From the NCBI GenBank assembly GCA_029933005.1, contig JAOZOY010000019.1:1-42705 (forward strand): 42,705 nt of DNA, read 5' to 3'. The first letter of the stretch is position 1. Each line of letters begins with the position of its first letter. Below are positions 35,297 to 42,705 of the stretch, one piece after another. This stretch comes from Deltaproteobacteria bacterium. Its GTDB lineage: Bacteria > Desulfobacterota > Desulfobulbia > Desulfobulbales > SURF-16. Below the pieces are notes generated by a model. It searched no databases, had not been told where the DNA came from, and was given only the letters and a program-made list of their open reading frames with translations. The translations under genes were made by a program, and so were the position numbers.

Positions 35297-35466
35297 GTAA
35301 CTATTCAGGTGGGGCCACCAAATTGGCTTAACCACCGTTTCGTAACTGTTTAGGAGTGCTCCATATTGGTTTATTTGGGACTTCGAAGCATACTTGTGTT
35401 ATTCGAGAAGGCCAGGTAAGCGTAGACTCCGAAATGGGACAATATGGGGTGCTCCTGAATAGTTAC
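35297..35466 (+). repeat. Dispersed intergenic repeat, copy E (long-core type)
   Basis: End motifs are GTAACTATTCAGGTGGGG (35297), GTAACTGTTTAGGAGTGCTC (35342, 45 bp later) and, inverted, the complement of GTAACTATTCAGGAGCACC ending at 35466. The core from about 35378 is nearly identical to copy D over about 60 bp (CTTCGAAGCATACTTGTG through GTAAGCGTAGACTC). It lies 100 bp before the ParA-like gene. Confidence 0.8.
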
Positions 35467-35566
35467 AATTCACCTTATATAACTTATTGTAACGAATGTT
35501 GACACCAGTGCCTTAGTTTCAACACTTTTCAAATTTAATAATGCGGATTGATCCGGAGTGATGAGA

Positions 35567-36490
35567 ATGGTTTTAATTTGCCCACATTGCAATAAAAAAC
35601 ACACGGTTGATGAGAAAAAAATCCCTGGAAACGTAAAAAAAGCACGTTGCAAATTTTGTGGTCAGACCTTTCTTTTGAAAAATTTTTTGAATGAATCCGG
35701 GAAAAAAGAAGATCTTCAACCTAAGCAAACCGGCCCCAGAAAAATAGCAGTTTCCTTAAGTAAAGGAGGCGTCGGCAAGACGACAACATCCGTCAACCTG
35801 GCCGCCGGTCTTGCTCTGGCCGGCTTTAAGGTATTGCTTGTTGATACGGATACCCAGGGCCAGGACAGTTTTGTCCTGGGGGTGAAGCCACAATTCGGCC
35901 TGACTGAACTTGTCACCGGCGAGCTCACTCCTGAAGAAACAATCATCGAGGCTCGGAAAAAATTATGGCTATTGGCTGGAGGAAAATCTCTGGCTGGACT
36001 TAAACGGATTATTGACCGTAAGGATTTCGGTTCGGAGACAACTCTGGCTGAAACTCTAATGCCCATTGAAAATCAATATGATTTTATCATTATTGATACA
36101 TCGCCTGGATGGGATCCGATTACAGTGAATGTCCTTTTTTATGTTACCGAGGTTTTAACGCCGGTTTCGCTTGAGGTGATGACCCTCCAGGGTCTTGTTG
36201 AATTTTTAAAGGCCTTGTCGGCGATTCAGAAATATCGCAGAGAGCTGGCGTTGAAATATATTGTCCCGACTTTTCAAGACAACAGGGTAAAAAAGACAGC
36301 CGGCATTTTAGGGAAACTGGAGTCCCTGTATGGACCGGTTCTCTGCAAGCCTATTCGTTATAATACCCGGCTGTCTGAAGCGCCTGCCCATGGCCAGACG
36401 ATTTATGAGTTTGCCCCTGGTTCTCCAGGTGCCCATGATTATCGGGATCTGGTCAGGAGGATTTCCGGGAACAGTAAGCTTTTTACCTGA
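35567..36490 (+). CDS. ParA/Soj-like ATPase with N-terminal MJ0042-type zinc ribbon
   Basis: A 308-residue protein. Residues about 1-35 form a zinc ribbon with CPHC and CKFC, like the MJ0042 domain. The rest is a ParA/MinD-type ATPase: deviant Walker A KGGVGKTTT (about 66-74, with the signature lysine), DTDTQGQDS, FIIIDTSPGWDPIT, and RYNTRLSEAPAHGQTIYEF, which is typical of chromosomal Soj proteins. Such ATPases position plasmids, chromosomes, chemotaxis arrays or other cargo on the nucleoid. No ParB gene is adjacent, so cargo positioning is more likely than partition. I chose ATG 35567 (GGAG eight bases upstream). It is first in a nine-gene same-strand cluster; its neighbour at 37074 also carries a zinc ribbon. 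Confidence 0.88.
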   Translation: MVLICPHCNKKHTVDEKKIPGNVKKARCKFCGQTFLLKNFLNESGKKEDLQPKQTGPRKIAVSLSKGGVGKTTTSVNLAAGLALAGFKVLLVDTDTQGQDSFVLGVKPQFGLTELVTGELTPEETIIEARKKLWLLAGGKSLAGLKRIIDRKDFGSETTLAETLMPIENQYDFIIIDTSPGWDPITVNVLFYVTEVLTPVSLEVMTLQGLVEFLKALSAIQKYRRELALKYIVPTFQDNRVKKTAGILGKLESLYGPVLCKPIRYNTRLSEAPAHGQTIYEFAPGSPGAHDYRDLVRRISGNSKLFT

Positions 36491-36578
36491 TATTTTATAA
36501 AAAATAAGGCAAATCCGTGACTCAATATACAATAGTCAAATGTCAAAAAAAGAATATGACCTGGAGGAATAAAAAATC

Positions 36579-37046
36579 ATGGCTGTTCTGACCGGTGATA
36601 TTGCAACTCTGGTTTGTAAACCCCATATTGATCCCGATATGGGTGAGATGGTGTTGAACGGTAGAATGCTGCAATTCTTGATGAAACTTGACGGCAGCAA
36701 GGACCTCGGTTCCATGGCTGAAATGTTGGGGTTGGATCTTAATACAGCAAAAGAAATATCCGCCAGACTTCTGGATCTTAAATTGATCAGCATTACCGAT
36801 GACAGCGAGCCTATGCTGCCCGGAATTTTCTTTGAGTTCATAACGGAAAGGCTTGCCATAATAGCCGGTCCCATTGCCCAGCTTATGGTGGATGATGCCA
36901 TCCAGGAACTGGGAGGAGAAAAACAGAAAATTCCCAAGAATAAGGCGATTGAACTCATCGATATTTTTTCCCGGCAAATTTTAGATGATGAACAGCGGGC
37001 TGTATTTATTCAAGTTGTGATGAAAAAATTAAACGAGATCAATTGA
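36579..37046 (+). CDS. Small protein of unknown function in the signalling cluster
   Basis: A 155-residue cytosolic protein that I do not recognise with confidence. The N-terminal third (about 20-70) looks like a winged-helix or DNA-binding-like helical domain (MLQFLMKLDGSKDLGSMAEML, then NTAKEISARLLDLKLIS). The second part (about 85-155) is helical: ITERLAIIAGPIAQLMVDDA followed by PKNKAIELIDIFSRQILDDE. Similar helical tails occur in deltaproteobacterial signalling proteins next to roadblock and PATAN domains, from memory only. GGAGG precedes the start by about ten bases. It is encoded between the ParA-like ATPase and the HAMP sensor. Confidence 0.75.
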   Translation: MAVLTGDIATLVCKPHIDPDMGEMVLNGRMLQFLMKLDGSKDLGSMAEMLGLDLNTAKEISARLLDLKLISITDDSEPMLPGIFFEFITERLAIIAGPIAQLMVDDAIQELGGEKQKIPKNKAIELIDIFSRQILDDEQRAVFIQVVMKKLNEIN

Positions 37047-37073
37047 TCATCGTATCCGTAAAATGGAGGACTT

Positions 37074-38114
37074 ATGATCATTTTTTGTGAAGAATGCAGT
37101 AAAAAATATAACATTGATGAAAGCAAAATTGTCGGTGAGAAGGGGCGTTGCAAGTGCCGAAACTGCGGCCACATCATGGAAATTTCCAAACCGAAGTCCG
37201 CACCTGAAAGCGTCTCCGAAGACCGTGCTTCTGTTGAAATGAACCAAAAGTCCAAACCCGCATCTGAATCGTCAGAAAATGTGACGGATGAGAAAGGGGA
37301 GGCAGCTGTGCAGCAGACTGAACAGACCCAAAAATCATTCAGTTTGCAGGGCTTAAGTCTTAATAAAAAACTTTTGATCAATTTTACCGGATTCATGGTC
37401 ACTTTAGGAGGTTTATTGATCTACATGTATATGGAGTTTGTTCCTGGTCTGCTGATGGAGCAAATCGATTTACGGACTTACACTGTTTCTCAGGCGTTTA
37501 AGGCTGCTATTGCCCAGCCTCTCCTGTTGAAAAATTATCTCCAGGTTAACAAAATAACCGATGAAATTTCTCGTCTGCCCGGAGTGGCCTATGTGGCGGT
37601 TGTCAATTCAAAGGGCATTGTTGTTGCCGGAATGCTTGGCGAAAAAAATCGTTTTTCCCCGGATTTTGTCGATCAGGTTAAGAAAAAAGGCTTTCCACGT
37701 GAAATAGTGTCTCAAAATCAGTTGAAAGGCACGACGACGCACCAATCCGGAAATCTGATGGCCGGAGGTCAGAATATTTATGATGTGGCTGTTCAAATGA
37801 ATGAAACCGGCGGAGAAGTCCATGTCGGCCTTTTTTTAGAAGATATCAGCAAAAAGGATATTATGGATATTGTCCCCCTTCTGATCGCTCTGGGAACATT
37901 GCTGATCATTGGAGCATTAAGTTTTCTGCATCTGGCAAATTCGATATCAAAACCGATTCGGGAGCTTGCTGAAGCCTCACAACGCATCAGTCTGGGCGAA
38001 CTTGACTTGCCAATAAAAATTAAAGGAAGCGGAGAAATTGTTGAACTGGCTTCGGCTCTGGAAAGAATGCGTTTTTCAATTAAGTCAGCCATGGAAAGAT
38101 TGAGGCGGAGGTAA
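37074..38114 (+). CDS. Membrane sensor with zinc ribbon, periplasmic loop and HAMP domain, no output domain
   Basis: A 346-residue inner-membrane protein. A cytosolic MJ0042-like zinc ribbon opens it (CEEC at 5-8 and CRNC at about 28-31), then a charged low-complexity linker (about 38-95), TM1 (about 104-122, LLINFTGFMVTLGGLLIYMYM), a periplasmic domain of about 145 residues resembling a single Cache/PAS-like sensor, TM2 (about 262-285, IVPLLIALGTLLIIGALSFLHL) and a HAMP domain (about 286-340, ISKPIRELAEASQRISLGELDL). It ends right after HAMP, with no kinase, cyclase or MCP part. A strong GGAGG site precedes the ATG. The signal must pass to a partner protein, perhaps the ATPase with the same ribbon. 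Confidence 0.82.
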   Translation: MIIFCEECSKKYNIDESKIVGEKGRCKCRNCGHIMEISKPKSAPESVSEDRASVEMNQKSKPASESSENVTDEKGEAAVQQTEQTQKSFSLQGLSLNKKLLINFTGFMVTLGGLLIYMYMEFVPGLLMEQIDLRTYTVSQAFKAAIAQPLLLKNYLQVNKITDEISRLPGVAYVAVVNSKGIVVAGMLGEKNRFSPDFVDQVKKKGFPREIVSQNQLKGTTTHQSGNLMAGGQNIYDVAVQMNETGGEVHVGLFLEDISKKDIMDIVPLLIALGTLLIIGALSFLHLANSISKPIRELAEASQRISLGELDLPIKIKGSGEIVELASALERMRFSIKSAMERLRRR

Positions 38115-38118
38115 TTTT

Positions 38119-38937
38119 ATGAAGCAGATAGTGCTGTTGATTTTTTTACTCTCATTTTTCCCTCAATCAGTATTTGGGGAAACATGGCATCTTTCCATGC
38201 TGCCTCGCTATGATGCCGACGAAATCAGCAAACGTATTACTCCCCTGGCGGCATATCTATCCCAAGAGCTTGGTATCAATGTTGAACCGCTGCTGATGAG
38301 TAACTTCAGTGAATATACCAGCCGCGTAAAAAGAGGTGATGTGGAAATCGGGTTTCAGAATCCCTACGTTTATACCCAGGTTGCCGAGGGACATGAGGCA
38401 GTGGCTATGGCCGTAAAGGGGGAAAACGGTGATCGATTTCGCGGCGTCATCATTGTTCGGAATGACAGTAACATAGACAGCCTTGATGATCTGAAGGGGA
38501 AAAATGTCGCTATTGTCGGGTTTTCTTCGGCAGGGGGATACCTGTCACAGAAATTAACCTTGATGCGTCATGGTATCGACGTTGACAAGGAGTGCCGATT
38601 GTCGGAAGCCGTGGAAAACAAACATGAGAATGTCCTGCTCTCGGTTTTTATCGGTGATGTTGACGCGGGATTTATCCGAGAATCAGCCTTATCCCAAGCT
38701 GAAAGTTTTGTGCCTGTCTCTCAGATTCGAATTGTGAATGAGTCGGCCTGGCTTGCCAACTGGGCTCTTTCAGTCAAGCGATCTTTGCCGGAGCAGCAGA
38801 AGAATATCATTCAAAAAATTGTAACGGAGTTACAGGAAGATGATGCGGTATTGAAGGCATTGAAAATTAAAAGCTTCAGATCCGCAACCGATTCTGAATA
38901 TGATTCGGTTCGTGTGGCGGCGGGTATGGAAAGGTAA
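38119..38937 (+). CDS. PhnD-like periplasmic substrate-binding protein
   Basis: A 272-residue secreted binding protein. The signal peptide is MKQIVLLIFLLSFFPQSVFG. The mature part follows the phosphate/phosphonate-binding (PhnD/TctC-like) pattern: LPRYDADEISKRITPLAAYL, RGDVEIGFQNPYVYTQV, LDDLKGKNVAIVGFSSAGGYL and VDAGFIRESAL. No ABC transporter genes lie nearby, so it more likely feeds a sensor than a transporter. The start follows the HAMP gene by 4 bp, with GGAGG overlapping its end, so co-expression and interaction with the periplasmic loop of that sensor are plausible. Confidence 0.85.
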   Translation: MKQIVLLIFLLSFFPQSVFGETWHLSMLPRYDADEISKRITPLAAYLSQELGINVEPLLMSNFSEYTSRVKRGDVEIGFQNPYVYTQVAEGHEAVAMAVKGENGDRFRGVIIVRNDSNIDSLDDLKGKNVAIVGFSSAGGYLSQKLTLMRHGIDVDKECRLSEAVENKHENVLLSVFIGDVDAGFIRESALSQAESFVPVSQIRIVNESAWLANWALSVKRSLPEQQKNIIQKIVTELQEDDAVLKALKIKSFRSATDSEYDSVRVAAGMER

Positions 38938-38954
38938 AACATAAAAAAATAAAC

Positions 38955-39926
38955 ATGATTATTACTCCAAAAGAAAAACCAGTTCTTTCCGGATTGAACA
39001 GTTATTACCTGAAAATTGAAAAGTTGATTGAGCATTTTCAGGGTCAAATAGGCACTGGTGCCATTTTTTTCCGATCTCCAACTGCTCAGGCAGTTATTTT
39101 TTTTGATCAGGACAATATTCTCAATGTCTATTTTCAAAATAAAACAAAATCCCCGCAGGGGAAAGAAGCGCTCAATACACTGTCCAAGGCAGCCTATAAT
39201 TTTATCGTAGAAATCTATGAGCTGGATCCGGATAGAATTCATTTCTGGGCCAATATGCCGGCTGCCCGCCAAATTCATCAGGGTCTCAGTACGGAGTTTG
39301 TAGATTTTGACGTTCTATTTAAAAAAATGACTGGGGAAAAGTTTACCGGTTTTTTTGATGTCAAGCTGAATCAGGATCTGGGTGAAGGACTTCTCTTTTT
39401 TGATGGTGGTGAGTTGATAGGAGGTTCGTATCATCTGGCGGAACTAACTGATAGTGATCCCCACGAACAGCAGCTCAGATTGATTCACCACATCAAAAAG
39501 GAAGGAGCGATTTTTCATATTTCAACCCTTGTTTTAAAAAAAGAAGAGATAAATTTTGCCTATAAAGAGGCTTCTCAGGCGAGTTCATTTGATCTCCTCC
39601 AGGCTTTAGGCGAAATGCTGAACACCTTTGAAGGCATTGTTAAAAAAGAGAAAGCGTATAATTTTAATGTGTTATTGAAACAGAAACTTGTCGATAAGGC
39701 TCTTAAATATGATTTTCTTGATCCATTCGCAGCCGAGTTTTTTTATGAAGACGGCAAGGTGATTTTTACAGGCCGGGAGGAACCCAAGGTTGTGGCAAAA
39801 GGAGTAATAGAAGCCGTTCTTGAACTGGCGGACGACCTGGATAAAAGAGAACATCTTCTGCAAAGATTACATATCTGGAGAAAAAAATATGGAAATCGTT
39901 TTTCTGAGCTGGGACTTAGAGTGTAA
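38955..39926 (+). CDS. Protein with two PATAN (DUF4388)-like modules
   Basis: A 323-residue cytosolic protein without signal peptide or TM. Two stretches share the PATAN/DUF4388 rhythm of a short strand, a loop and an apolar G-rich return: TGAIFFRSPTAQAVIFFDQDN (about 34-54) and FTGFFDVKLNQDLGEGLLFFDGGELIGGSYH (about 129-160, split by several residues). PATAN domains are found in PatA-like regulators and mediate protein contacts. The C-terminal third (about 230-323) is helical with charged residues and unassigned. It sits between the PhnD-like protein and the response regulator. Function unknown; scaffold or adaptor is the best guess. Confidence 0.72.
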   Translation: MIITPKEKPVLSGLNSYYLKIEKLIEHFQGQIGTGAIFFRSPTAQAVIFFDQDNILNVYFQNKTKSPQGKEALNTLSKAAYNFIVEIYELDPDRIHFWANMPAARQIHQGLSTEFVDFDVLFKKMTGEKFTGFFDVKLNQDLGEGLLFFDGGELIGGSYHLAELTDSDPHEQQLRLIHHIKKEGAIFHISTLVLKKEEINFAYKEASQASSFDLLQALGEMLNTFEGIVKKEKAYNFNVLLKQKLVDKALKYDFLDPFAAEFFYEDGKVIFTGREEPKVVAKGVIEAVLELADDLDKREHLLQRLHIWRKKYGNRFSELGLRV

Positions 39927-39968
39927 CGCTTTTACAGTAATGAGGGTATTCAGCCGGATTGGGATGCA

Positions 39969-41003
39969 ATGAAAAAGATTCTTTTTGTCGATGATGACAG
40001 AGAAGTCCGTCGTTTTTTTCAAAACGAGCTGGAACATTTTAATCTCCCTTTCTCGGCTCTAGTTGCCGAGGATGGTGTCAAAGCAATAGAAATTCTGCAA
40101 AAAGAATTTATTTCCGTTGTTGTCACTGACTTGAAGATGCCAAGAATGGATGGCCTGGCTCTGTTAAATGCCATAACCCGTGATTACCCCGATATTTCCG
40201 TCATCATTATAACTGGTTATGCCACTGAAAAAATTAAAAAAATGGTTCTGCAAAGCGGGGCGGCCGCTTTTATTGAAAAGCCATTTAAGATTGAGAGGTT
40301 GATCGGCCCTATTAATGCGATTCTAAAAAATGAATCTGATGGTGGAACCTTGCATGGGGTGACGCCCGGCATGTTTTTGCAACTCGTTGAGATGGAGGAA
40401 AAAACATGCACTGTCCGACTGACTGACGGGAATACAGGTGAACAGGGAGTGCTTTTCTTTGACCAGGGTCTTTTACTCGATGCAAGAACTTCTAAACAGC
40501 ATGGTAAAGATGCTGCCTATGAAATTTTTGCCTGGGATAATGTTTCCGTTGGCATTCAGAATATCTGTTTTCAAAAGCAGGACAGAATCAAAAGTGATTT
40601 ACAGGCAATTCTTCTAGAGTCAATGCGCAGAAAGGATGAACAGGACCAGAATGAAAATCAAGTCATCTGGCTGGACAGTGAAGACGAAAAACCCGCTGTG
40701 ATGGAAATCAACCTTTCAAATGATGTGGATTATCTCTCGGTAGAGGATGTGCAAAAGATGTTGAGAGAAGAAATCGTCCAGGAGTGTTTACCTGAAAAAA
40801 TTATTGCAGACAGTTCCTGGGATAATTTTTTGTTTTACGGTACACGGTTGAGTAAATGTTTGGGAGGGGGCAAGTTGAAAGTGGGATTTATCGATAATGG
40901 TTCATCTGGAAATACTATTTTACTTCGTGGCCGGGAGACAATCGTTGTGTCCATAAGTTCCGCCTGTCCACGCGATAAAATTATGGATCTTCTCAGTCGG
41001 TAA
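39969..41003 (+). CDS. Response regulator with PATAN (DUF4388)-like domain
   Basis: A 344-residue protein. The CheY-like receiver (about 1-120) has all key residues: Asp8/Asp9, the phospho-acceptor Asp54 in VVVTDLKMPRMDG, Thr82 (IIITGYAT) and Lys104 (IEKPFK). A PATAN-like domain follows (about 126-240; GTLHGVTPGMFLQLVEMEEK and LFFDQGLLLDARTS). The C-terminal part (about 250-344) is unassigned. No histidine kinase gene is in the cluster, so the phosphodonor must be elsewhere. It probably relays a phosphorylation state to the roadblock/GTPase genes that follow. Confidence 0.88.
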   Translation: MKKILFVDDDREVRRFFQNELEHFNLPFSALVAEDGVKAIEILQKEFISVVVTDLKMPRMDGLALLNAITRDYPDISVIIITGYATEKIKKMVLQSGAAAFIEKPFKIERLIGPINAILKNESDGGTLHGVTPGMFLQLVEMEEKTCTVRLTDGNTGEQGVLFFDQGLLLDARTSKQHGKDAAYEIFAWDNVSVGIQNICFQKQDRIKSDLQAILLESMRRKDEQDQNENQVIWLDSEDEKPAVMEINLSNDVDYLSVEDVQKMLREEIVQECLPEKIIADSSWDNFLFYGTRLSKCLGGGKLKVGFIDNGSSGNTILLRGRETIVVSISSACPRDKIMDLLSR

Positions 41004-41005
41004 AT

Positions 41006-41359
41006 ATGAAGCAGCTTTTTAAAGATATTATAGCCATTGACGGCGTGAAAGGGATTTTACTGTTTTCCACTGAGGGACGGCTTCATTTTCATGAATTGAA
41101 CTATCCTTTTCATGAAAATCCGACCCGACAGGATTGGTCTTTTTTGACTTCAATGATGAAAGATGTTCGGGAAGCTGATCTCATTTATGAAAACAGCCGT
41201 TTTTATCTTCGATCAACAACTGCCGGTTATCTTCTGGTCGTGATGGAGAGAGCAACACCCATCTCTCTCGTAAGGCTGTCGTGCGACATGGCCATACCTG
41301 CCTTAAAAAAACAGGCAGTGGCGCCAAAGGGTATTATGCGGTTCTTCAAACGCAAATAA
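41006..41359 (+). CDS. Small roadblock-like protein
   Basis: A 117-residue protein. GVKGILLFSTEGRLHFHELN and YLLVVMERATPISLVRLSCDMAIPAL follow the roadblock/LC7 beta-strand and helix order found in MglB-like partners. The C-terminus is basic (RFFKRK). It starts two bases after the response regulator stop. Family assignment is moderate because the central part is divergent. Confidence 0.7.
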   Translation: MKQLFKDIIAIDGVKGILLFSTEGRLHFHELNYPFHENPTRQDWSFLTSMMKDVREADLIYENSRFYLRSTTAGYLLVVMERATPISLVRLSCDMAIPALKKQAVAPKGIMRFFKRK

Positions 41360-41416
41360 GGGACGGGAATTAAATAAATTGGCGTAATTTATTTCAAGTA
41401 CGTACCTAAGGAGAAT

Positions 41417-41812
41417 ATGGTCATGAATTATGGCATAGATCAAGATAGATTAGTCTCAATAGACAACATTATAAAAGAGGATCTGATTGAAATAGGCGTT
41501 GACTACGCCATCATGATCGACACAGCCGGAAATACCATCGCAAAATGCGACAGTGGGGGGCAGGATTATGATGTAGCATCTCTCGCGGCCTTGGCTGCCG
41601 GGAATTATGCCACGGTGGATGCCATGGCGAAGATTGTCGGTGAGCAGGAATTTTCTCTTCTTTTTCATAAAGGAAAAAATATAAGCATTCATTTCAGTAC
41701 AATTAATGAAGAATTCTTGCTTATCATTTTATTTGGCAAGGAGGTATCACTCGGTTTTTTACGTCTGAAGGTGGCCGAGACTATTGAAAAGATAAGAGGG
41801 CTCTGGAAATAA
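41417..41812 (+). CDS. Roadblock/LC7-domain protein (MglB-like)
   Basis: A 131-residue protein. The roadblock/LC7 pattern is clear: YAIMIDTAGNTIAKCDSGG, then VASLAALAAGNYATVDAMAKIVGE, then SLLFHKGKNISIHF and FLLIILFG. Such proteins bind and activate MglA-type GTPases. AAGGAG lies four bases before ATG 41417 and ten before ATG 41423, which would give a two-residue shorter protein. It directly precedes the GTPase gene, the usual pairing. Confidence 0.87.
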   Translation: MVMNYGIDQDRLVSIDNIIKEDLIEIGVDYAIMIDTAGNTIAKCDSGGQDYDVASLAALAAGNYATVDAMAKIVGEQEFSLLFHKGKNISIHFSTINEEFLLIILFGKEVSLGFLRLKVAETIEKIRGLWK

Positions 41813-41849
41813 TTTATTTTTTTAAATCAGATACGAGAAGGGGAACGAG

Positions 41850-42455
41850 TTGGCATTTATTAATATGAAAACCCGAGAAGTTCAGGTCAAGATAGTCTAT
41901 TACGGTCCTGGCCGTGGCGGTAAGACCACGAATCTGGAATTTATCAATGATAAGTTTCGGGAGCGGATCAAGTCTAAAATGGTCAGTATCAAGACCCATG
42001 GCGACCGGACTCTTTTTTTCGATTTTTTGCCTTTTGATATCGGTAAAATTAAGGGATACGATATTAAGATTCAGATGTATACGGTTCCCGGCCAGGTAAA
42101 ATATAACGCCACCCGTAAACTCGTCCTTAAGGGGGTGGATGGACTTGTCTTTGTCGCCGATGCCATGGCGGAACGGAGAAAACACAATCTACTTTCCCTG
42201 AAACAGCTGCAGGAAAATTTGACTGCATACAAGAAGAACATTTTTAAAATTCCGCTGGTTTTGCAATATAACAAATTTGATTTGAAAGATCAGAATATTC
42301 CTCTTTTGTCCCTTGCAACAATAGAACAGGATCTGAATGGAAAATTAAAAGTTCCTTCCTTTGCCGCCAGTGCTTTAACAGGAGAAAATGTTGTTCCGAC
42401 TTTAAAAAAGATTATTTCCGTCACTATGGCGGCGATACAGAAGGAATTGCGATAG
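41850..42455 (+). CDS. MglA-type small Ras-like GTPase
   Basis: A 201-residue GTPase of the bacterial MglA/Arf-like family. MAFINMKTREVQVKIVYYGP then GPGRGGKTT (G1, about 19-27) is typical; the G3-like PGQVKYNATRKLVL, the G4-like NKFDLKD and the G5-like SAL follow. MglA proteins set cell polarity and gliding or twitching direction in Myxococcus. The TTG start is supported by GGGG eight bases upstream; an ATG at residue 6 would lose conserved sequence. It is last in the cluster. Confidence 0.92.
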   Translation: MAFINMKTREVQVKIVYYGPGRGGKTTNLEFINDKFRERIKSKMVSIKTHGDRTLFFDFLPFDIGKIKGYDIKIQMYTVPGQVKYNATRKLVLKGVDGLVFVADAMAERRKHNLLSLKQLQENLTAYKKNIFKIPLVLQYNKFDLKDQNIPLLSLATIEQDLNGKLKVPSFAASALTGENVVPTLKKIISVTMAAIQKELR

Positions 42456-42491
42456 TGACTGTCCGTAAATCCACTTTATACCTGAATAAAG

Positions 42492-42599
42492 GTAAACGAT
42501 CACAGGCACCGAATCTTACCGCGATCAGGGCGTCTGACATAGAGGGGCTATAGTCACCCGCCCTGCTTACGGTAATCTCCGGCACCTGTAAACGCTTAT
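42492..42599 (+). repeat. Dispersed intergenic repeat, copy F (short-core type)
   Basis: The ends GTAAACGATCACAGGCACCG and the complement of ATAAGCGTTTACAGGTGCCG are imperfect inverted repeats. Inside, CAGGGCG/CGCCCTG (42526-42532, 42559-42565) and GAC/GTC are capped by ATAG-AGGGG-CTAT plus a bulged A (42539-42552), the apex also seen in copies B and C. It lies after the GTPase gene. Confidence 0.75.
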
Positions 42600-42697
42600 A
42601 GAATAAGGAGTTACCTGAAAGCTTGGTGATTTTACCCCGTGATTGGTTACGAATAAAGATATTTTTTTAAAAGTGGTTGTTTAGAAGAACGCGAAAC

Positions 42698-42705
42698 AGG
42701 AGGTT
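42698..42705 (+). promoter_or_regulatory. Shine-Dalgarno sequence of a gene starting beyond the window
   Basis: AGGAGGTT at the very end of the window is a full anti-16S match and probably belongs to a plus-strand gene whose start lies just outside. Confidence 0.5.

Follow-up and report, generated by a model that had tools for sequence, protein, structure and literature searches.

A candidate MglA-centered sensory operon in Desulfobacterota that may control type IV pili

Introduction

Most knowledge of how signals reach the small GTPase MglA comes from Myxococcus with its chemosensory system. A cluster of genes for a receptor, a periplasmic binding protein, PATAN proteins and an MglA-type GTPase raises the question of what such a locus might sense and what its GTPase might control. 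The cluster lies near one end of a 42,705-nucleotide stretch of DNA from a Deltaproteobacteria bacterium, which is called the window here. The original prediction held that a periplasmic ligand is sensed and converted, through HAMP and receiver domains, into positioning controlled by the GTPase and by ParA. This scheme fits the evidence presented below, and sequence comparisons point to the type IV pilus as the most likely positioned target, although the part assigned to ParA is weaker.

Gene content and boundaries

The cluster had been described as nine genes on the same strand with gaps of at most about 90 bp. All nine ORFs are present, beginning at 35558 or 35567 and ending at 42455 (Table 1), and their gaps range from 2 to 88 bp (88, 27, 4, 17, 42, 2, 57 and 37 bp, in gene order). 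Genes 2, 5 and 7 lack a confident Pfam match of their own. Gene 1 is preceded by an intergenic stretch and, beyond it, an ORF recognized as FtsK-like by reading only. A MITE-like element occupies positions 35297-35466, between this ORF and gene 1; it carries 13-bp perfect inverted ends (GTAACTATTCAGG) and has approximately 45 matching places in the genome.

Table 1. Features of the operon, in window coordinates unless a contig is named.
Feature	Position	Strand	Description
Gene 1	35558..36490	+	Zinc-ribbon ParA-like ATPase; start likely 35567
Gene 2	36579..37046	+	Winged-helix-like protein with a conserved C-terminal domain
Gene 3	37074..38114	+	Receptor: zinc ribbon, TM, periplasmic domain, TM, HAMP; ends with the HAMP
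Gene 4	38119..38937	+	PhnD-like periplasmic binding protein; N-terminus resembles a signal peptide
Gene 5	38955..39926	+	PATAN-family protein; the operon's most diagnostic member
Gene 6	39969..41003	+	Response regulator, receiver plus PATAN (DUF4388)
Gene 7	41006..41359	+	Divergent protein of predicted roadblock fold; basic C-terminal tail
Gene 8	41417..41812	+	MglB (roadblock/LC7)
Gene 9	41850..42455	+	MglA small GTPase; TTG start
Gene 10	C127:12545-10767	-	GTG start 5 bp beyond the window end
Site resembling a ribosome-binding site of gene 10	42698-42703	+	AGGAGG, 6 nt before the GTG start

The nine genes are real, but the proposed nine-gene extent missed a tenth gene that appears to lie past the contig end. 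The window is an entire contig (C91) that ends in a dispersed repeat with about 45 matching places in the genome, and its last 55 bp (42651-42705) are identical to the last 55 bp of contig C127. Moreover, C127 encodes a homolog (45%) of the product encoded next after mglA in two sister genomes (L038, L039). We infer that C91 continues into C127, a join on which the assembly is silent. The operon seems to end after gene 10, because the next ORF downstream on C127 is on the opposite strand. Besides the MITE-like element, a second dispersed repeat family, also with approximately 45 matching places in the genome, is represented at 42485-42657 between mglA and gene 10, and this copy is probably the cause of the contig break.

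The domain of gene 10 is modeled as five helices (pLDDT 93.7), and a fold search returned no significant relative in the PDB. An HPt identity was considered and rejected: the fold search yielded nothing beyond non-significant CheA-P1 matches (E of at least 0.2), and a profile comparison with HPt, a weak test because two of its seven HPt rows had the wrong orientation, gave a probability of 0.4%. In two loci, from Desulfobulbus elongatus and Candidatus Electronema (L128, L133), gene 10 is enlarged to 919-1343 amino acids and contains repeats of a domain along with long acidic linkers.

MglA, MglB and a second roadblock protein

The predicted MglA identity of gene 9 is well founded. The protein is a Ras-like GTPase by Pfam and matches M. 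xanthus MglA at 3.7e-52, and R53, T78 and Q82, whose roles are taken from the literature, are invariant in the MglA alignment. With MglA as its best match, these residues conserved and a cognate mglB adjoining, gene 9 is a likely Group 1-like MglA.

Gene 8 matches Robl_LC7 (6.8e-8) and M. xanthus MglB (1e-14). Gene 7 has no Pfam match, and its profile comparison with MglB is weak (14.5%). However, its AlphaFold model (pLDDT 83.7) has Thermus MglB (1j3w) as the top Foldseek match, with an E value of 5e-6. The proposal of two roadblock-like proteins thus holds because the gene 7 model best matches MglB, with gene 7 being a second roadblock protein by predicted fold. In seven other loci (L073, L074, L075, L076, L079, L080, L085), a second mglB-like gene is located right after mglA and ahead of gene 10.

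Conservation across Desulfobacterota

A scan with the MglA alignment left 80 loci. Nearly all are labeled Desulfobacterota or Deltaproteobacteria, including Desulfonema and cable bacteria; a few are labeled only as Proteobacteria or Pseudomonadota and one as Chlorobiaceae. In all 77 testable loci gene 10 lies after mglA, directly in 74 and behind a second mglB in three, and mglB precedes mglA in 76 of the 77. These and the other neighbor counts describe sampled or top-scoring loci rather than phylum frequencies. Some were made with a basic ORF caller, which may overlook genes under a longer overlapping ORF; those around mglA were redone on six frames.

The core across Desulfobacterota is mglB-mglA-gene 10, often accompanied by PATAN proteins and the HAMP-terminated receptor. 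Most of the MglA loci hold the three-gene core only, and the extended set is found in 14 of the 45 loci that have at least 9 kb downstream; nine of those 14 also carry a PilB-like ATPase. The set is found clustered again in many genomes, far beyond chance, and the ten-gene run is conserved among relatives that are sulfate reducers.

Receptor and ligand-binding proteins

Gene 3 was predicted to be a HAMP sensor, and Pfam confirms both its zinc ribbon (Zn_ribbon_4) and its HAMP domain, along with a weak sCache match. A comparison of 50 homologs by hydropathy and length, rather than by domain scans of each protein, finds two hydrophobic segments, of which the second lies close to the HAMP region at the C-terminus, and a zinc ribbon in 34. 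A Pfam scan detected no kinase domain in gene 3 or in any of the nine proteins.

Gene 4 bears out the PhnD-like assignment (PF12974, 4.6e-55). Its nearest solved structures are PtxB and then ArrX/AioX, and AioX is a sensing protein (PMC5908839). The neighbors of gene 4 are genes 3 and 5, with none of the permease or ATPase genes of a phosphonate/phosphite ABC transporter beside it. In addition, the operon PhnD copies carry NP and SAGG motifs where PtxB, in its alignment with gene 4, has GP and STSS. Because of these differences, we do not claim phosphonate or phosphite as the ligand.

The PhnD-like gene is a variable but recurrent member of the operon. It is found in the cluster in the window and in L037, L040, L042, L202, L205, L207 and L112, with two copies each in L040 and L042, and is absent from L038, L039 and L049. 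A TRAP DctP protein is encoded after gene 5 in L043 and L193, and genes of DctP size, recognized by size only, occupy this place in L044-L047. The recurrence of PhnD-like genes beside the receptor or PATAN genes in several lineages, and of a TRAP protein in another lineage, supports a putative role in ligand sensing. At approximately 10115-10370 of L041, between the receptor and gene 5, is a degraded PhnD-like remnant broken by frame changes; no such remnant was found in L039.

The zinc-ribbon ParA

Gene 1 matches ParA/AAA_31 (7.8e-36) and Zn_ribbon_4 (1.7e-11) by Pfam, which confirms the ParA and zinc-ribbon components of the predicted positioning system. None of the nine operon proteins matches ParB, whose gene would lie beside parA in a plasmid or chromosome ParABS system. 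Orthologs that are 95% and 72% identical occupy the same position in three genomes of the window's family, and the four operon copies form one group in a tree (support 97/99). ParA relatives were found in 20 of 395 genomes, with some of the matches confined to the ATPase part. Ten of their neighborhoods were fetched: the other operon genes showed up in none of them, and several have PilZ-domain, CheC-like or PilB genes nearby. Therefore, the zinc-ribbon ParA seems to have been added in the window's family and to be separate from the core. We rejected ParA as a core part, since its family also occurs without the operon and is linked to it only in the window's family, and the ParA part of the original prediction is weaker. 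In L236 and L237, a zinc-ribbon ParA gene shares its stretch of DNA with genes for a PilB-like ATPase and a CheC-like protein; the matching PilB locus of the window's genome (L186) shows no ParA.

The occurrence of ParA alone in other genomes, together with the three loci that lack PhnD, could indicate a loose assembly in which an MglA core sits among unrelated neighbors, with PhnD as a stray uptake protein and ParA as an independent gene. We consider this very improbable, however, given that genes 2, 3, 5, 6 and 7 travel with mglBA in many genomes, that the receptor repeatedly has a PhnD-like gene next to it and gene 5 a DctP gene after it, and that the operon PhnD copies share a signature absent from PtxB.

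Links to type IV pili

The ATPase encoded in the operons of relatives has TPR, MshEN and T2SSE domains. PilB is its best NCBIfam model, though below the cut-off, and GspE is close behind. In L203, L207 and L209, the operon runs on into PilM, with PilN confirmed in L207 and L209, and PilO and PilP in L207. The L207 locus encodes, on one strand, the receptor, the PhnD-like protein, the receiver-PATAN protein, gene 5, MglB, MglA and a 425-amino-acid protein, followed by a histidine kinase, a sigma-54 regulator, PilM, PilN, PilO and PilP. By position alone, the kinase and regulator might correspond to PilS and PilR. Another locus (L211) has genes 2, 3 and 5 and a gene-10-like protein, and after these PilM-PilN-PilO with a secretin; no mglA was called at this locus.

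No pilus gene adjoins the operon in the window; such neighbors are present in L203, L207, L209 and L211. The window's genome encodes PilM on another contig, with four following ORFs that are pilNOPQ-like by size and order, as well as PilB-type ATPases and two PilT-like ATPases. It has no close match to the operon PilB, the best scoring 436 bits versus about 1150.

Because relatives carry an operon PilB-like ATPase or run into pilM-pilN-pilO, we prefer a pilus-control reading, and we judge it reasonably probable that the ten genes form a sensory operon that sets the GTPase state of MglA and so controls type IV pili. MglA-GTP is known to bind and act on the TPR protein SgmX, which localizes PilB (PMC7519303), and the PATAN regulator PixE is thought to bind PilB1 (PMC7690835).

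An MglA polarity module could instead have another cargo, for instance the gliding machinery, enzymes of the envelope or chemoreceptors; the positioning ATPase in the window's lineage would then be the zinc-ribbon ParA. The window carries ParA in its operon, as do three other family members, and has no PilB-like gene, and many relatives hold only mglB-mglA-gene 10. Nevertheless, pilus genes are recurrent neighbors in several families, and elsewhere the ParA family is often near PilZ-domain or PilB genes, which points to pili or c-di-GMP. A non-pilus cargo is thus unlikely in our estimation.

PATAN proteins and gene 2

Gene 6 bears out the predicted PATAN response regulator, with matches to Response_reg (3.6e-25) and DUF4388 (5.4e-11), the latter at 43.0 bits against a curated cut-off of 25. 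It is the only DUF4388 match in the window's genome. Gene 5, predicted to be PATAN-like, can be placed in the family through its homologs, 12 of 17 of which match DUF4388 (E of 0.01 or lower), but the window protein itself has no match over the curated cut-off. At an E value of 1e-8, gene 5 was found in 48 of the 395 genomes sampled from the phylum, the weakest being partial matches. Three other loci carry PAS proteins ahead of gene 6 within the operon, each with a HisKA region and no HATPase match (L088:13402-14436, L081:5911-7023, L092:7527-8282).

Gene 2 invites a reading as gene regulation, in which it would be a DNA-binding winged-helix protein controlled by the receptor or PATAN proteins and the GTPase would be a switch on the way. 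Most gene 2 homologs (20 of 29) match the winged-helix model HTH_47, a histidine kinase and a sigma-54 regulator follow the operon in one lineage, and a role in regulating transcription was proposed for Group 3 MglA systems (PMC4316618). Conversely, the window copy falls below the curated cut-off, and the fusion of gene 2 behind an N-terminal DUF4388/PATAN domain in L043 and L053 suggests protein contact. No dedicated target promoter was found; scans for sigma-54 and sigma-70 patterns gave no more matches than chance. These considerations leave gene regulation as a quite unlikely main function, though a winged helix in gene 2 would also fit a transcriptional output.

Proposed mechanism

From the gene content, fold assignments, neighborhood conservation and pilus link in relatives, we infer a signal path of five steps that ends in control of the pilus. 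First, the PhnD-like protein would bind a periplasmic ligand and touch the gene 3 receptor. Second, since this receptor carries no kinase or other output domain, its HAMP would act by contact, probably on the gene 2 and gene 5 proteins. Third, the receiver-PATAN protein of gene 6 could add a phosphorylation input from an unlinked histidine kinase. Fourth, these inputs would act on MglB and gene 7, shifting MglA between its GTP and GDP forms. Fifth, MglA, with the always-adjacent gene 10, might act on the motor or the position of the type IV pilus. A stricter version would be a bacterial route from ligand to small GTPase: a receptor with neither kinase nor cyclase, fed by its periplasmic binding protein, would relay the signal by way of PATAN and roadblock proteins directly to the Ras-like GTPase, and this in turn would drive the type IV pilus motor. 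This version is tentative and on balance doubtful.

Comparison with known systems

Among the closest known systems is the M. xanthus pathway of MglA/MglB, SgmX and PilB, which shares an MglA with R53/T78/Q82, an adjoining MglB and an output through a TPR protein and PilB. It differs in that TPR and PilB-like domains are joined in one protein in the relatives studied here, and in that the present genes stand in an operon of their own, which includes a receptor, PATAN proteins, a second roadblock protein and gene 10. Genes for Frz, RomR or SgmX were not recognized in the operon.

PATAN genes adjoining mglA/mglB were reported earlier, as occasional neighbors (Makarova 2006, cited in Wuichet and Sogaard-Andersen 2014, PMC4316618). 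The text of the latter paper mentions neither ParA nor phosphonate, and its passages on PATAN neighborhoods name no pilus ATPase or HAMP-terminated receptor. In cyanobacteria, PixE, PixG and LsiR are likewise receiver and PATAN regulators tied to the pilus motor PilB1, but their input is light or chemotaxis-like, and the passages on them describe no MglA operon. The AioX/ArrX-AioS-AioR systems resemble the locus in pairing a PhnD-like sensing protein with a membrane partner. However, AioS is a histidine kinase, whereas gene 3 stops at its HAMP and lacks the kinase domain of an AioX-type partner. Actinobacterial conservons (Cvn) also combine MglB, a protein of unknown function and MglA in one operon with a membrane receptor, but the window operon has no histidine-kinase-like CvnA.

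Our literature search, which covered a minority of subscription papers, found no paper containing both DUF4388 and MglA and, among the titles listed, no description of such an operon. The original statement that no system of this composition was known to be described seems to hold for the whole set, but the composition is not wholly unprecedented because PATAN-MglA-MglB neighborhoods were reported before. The pathway as a whole looks undescribed, with parts of known kinds.

The operon gathers a receptor, relay candidates, a GTPase, its regulator and, in relatives, a pilus motor, so one system offers the entire chain from receptor to motor for testing. As a line of evidence separate from Myxococcus, the TPR-PilB fusion also suggests TPR contacts as the route by which MglA reaches the motor. 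Finally, gene 10 emerges as a conserved mglA partner across Desulfobacterota, cable bacteria and Desulfonema among them.
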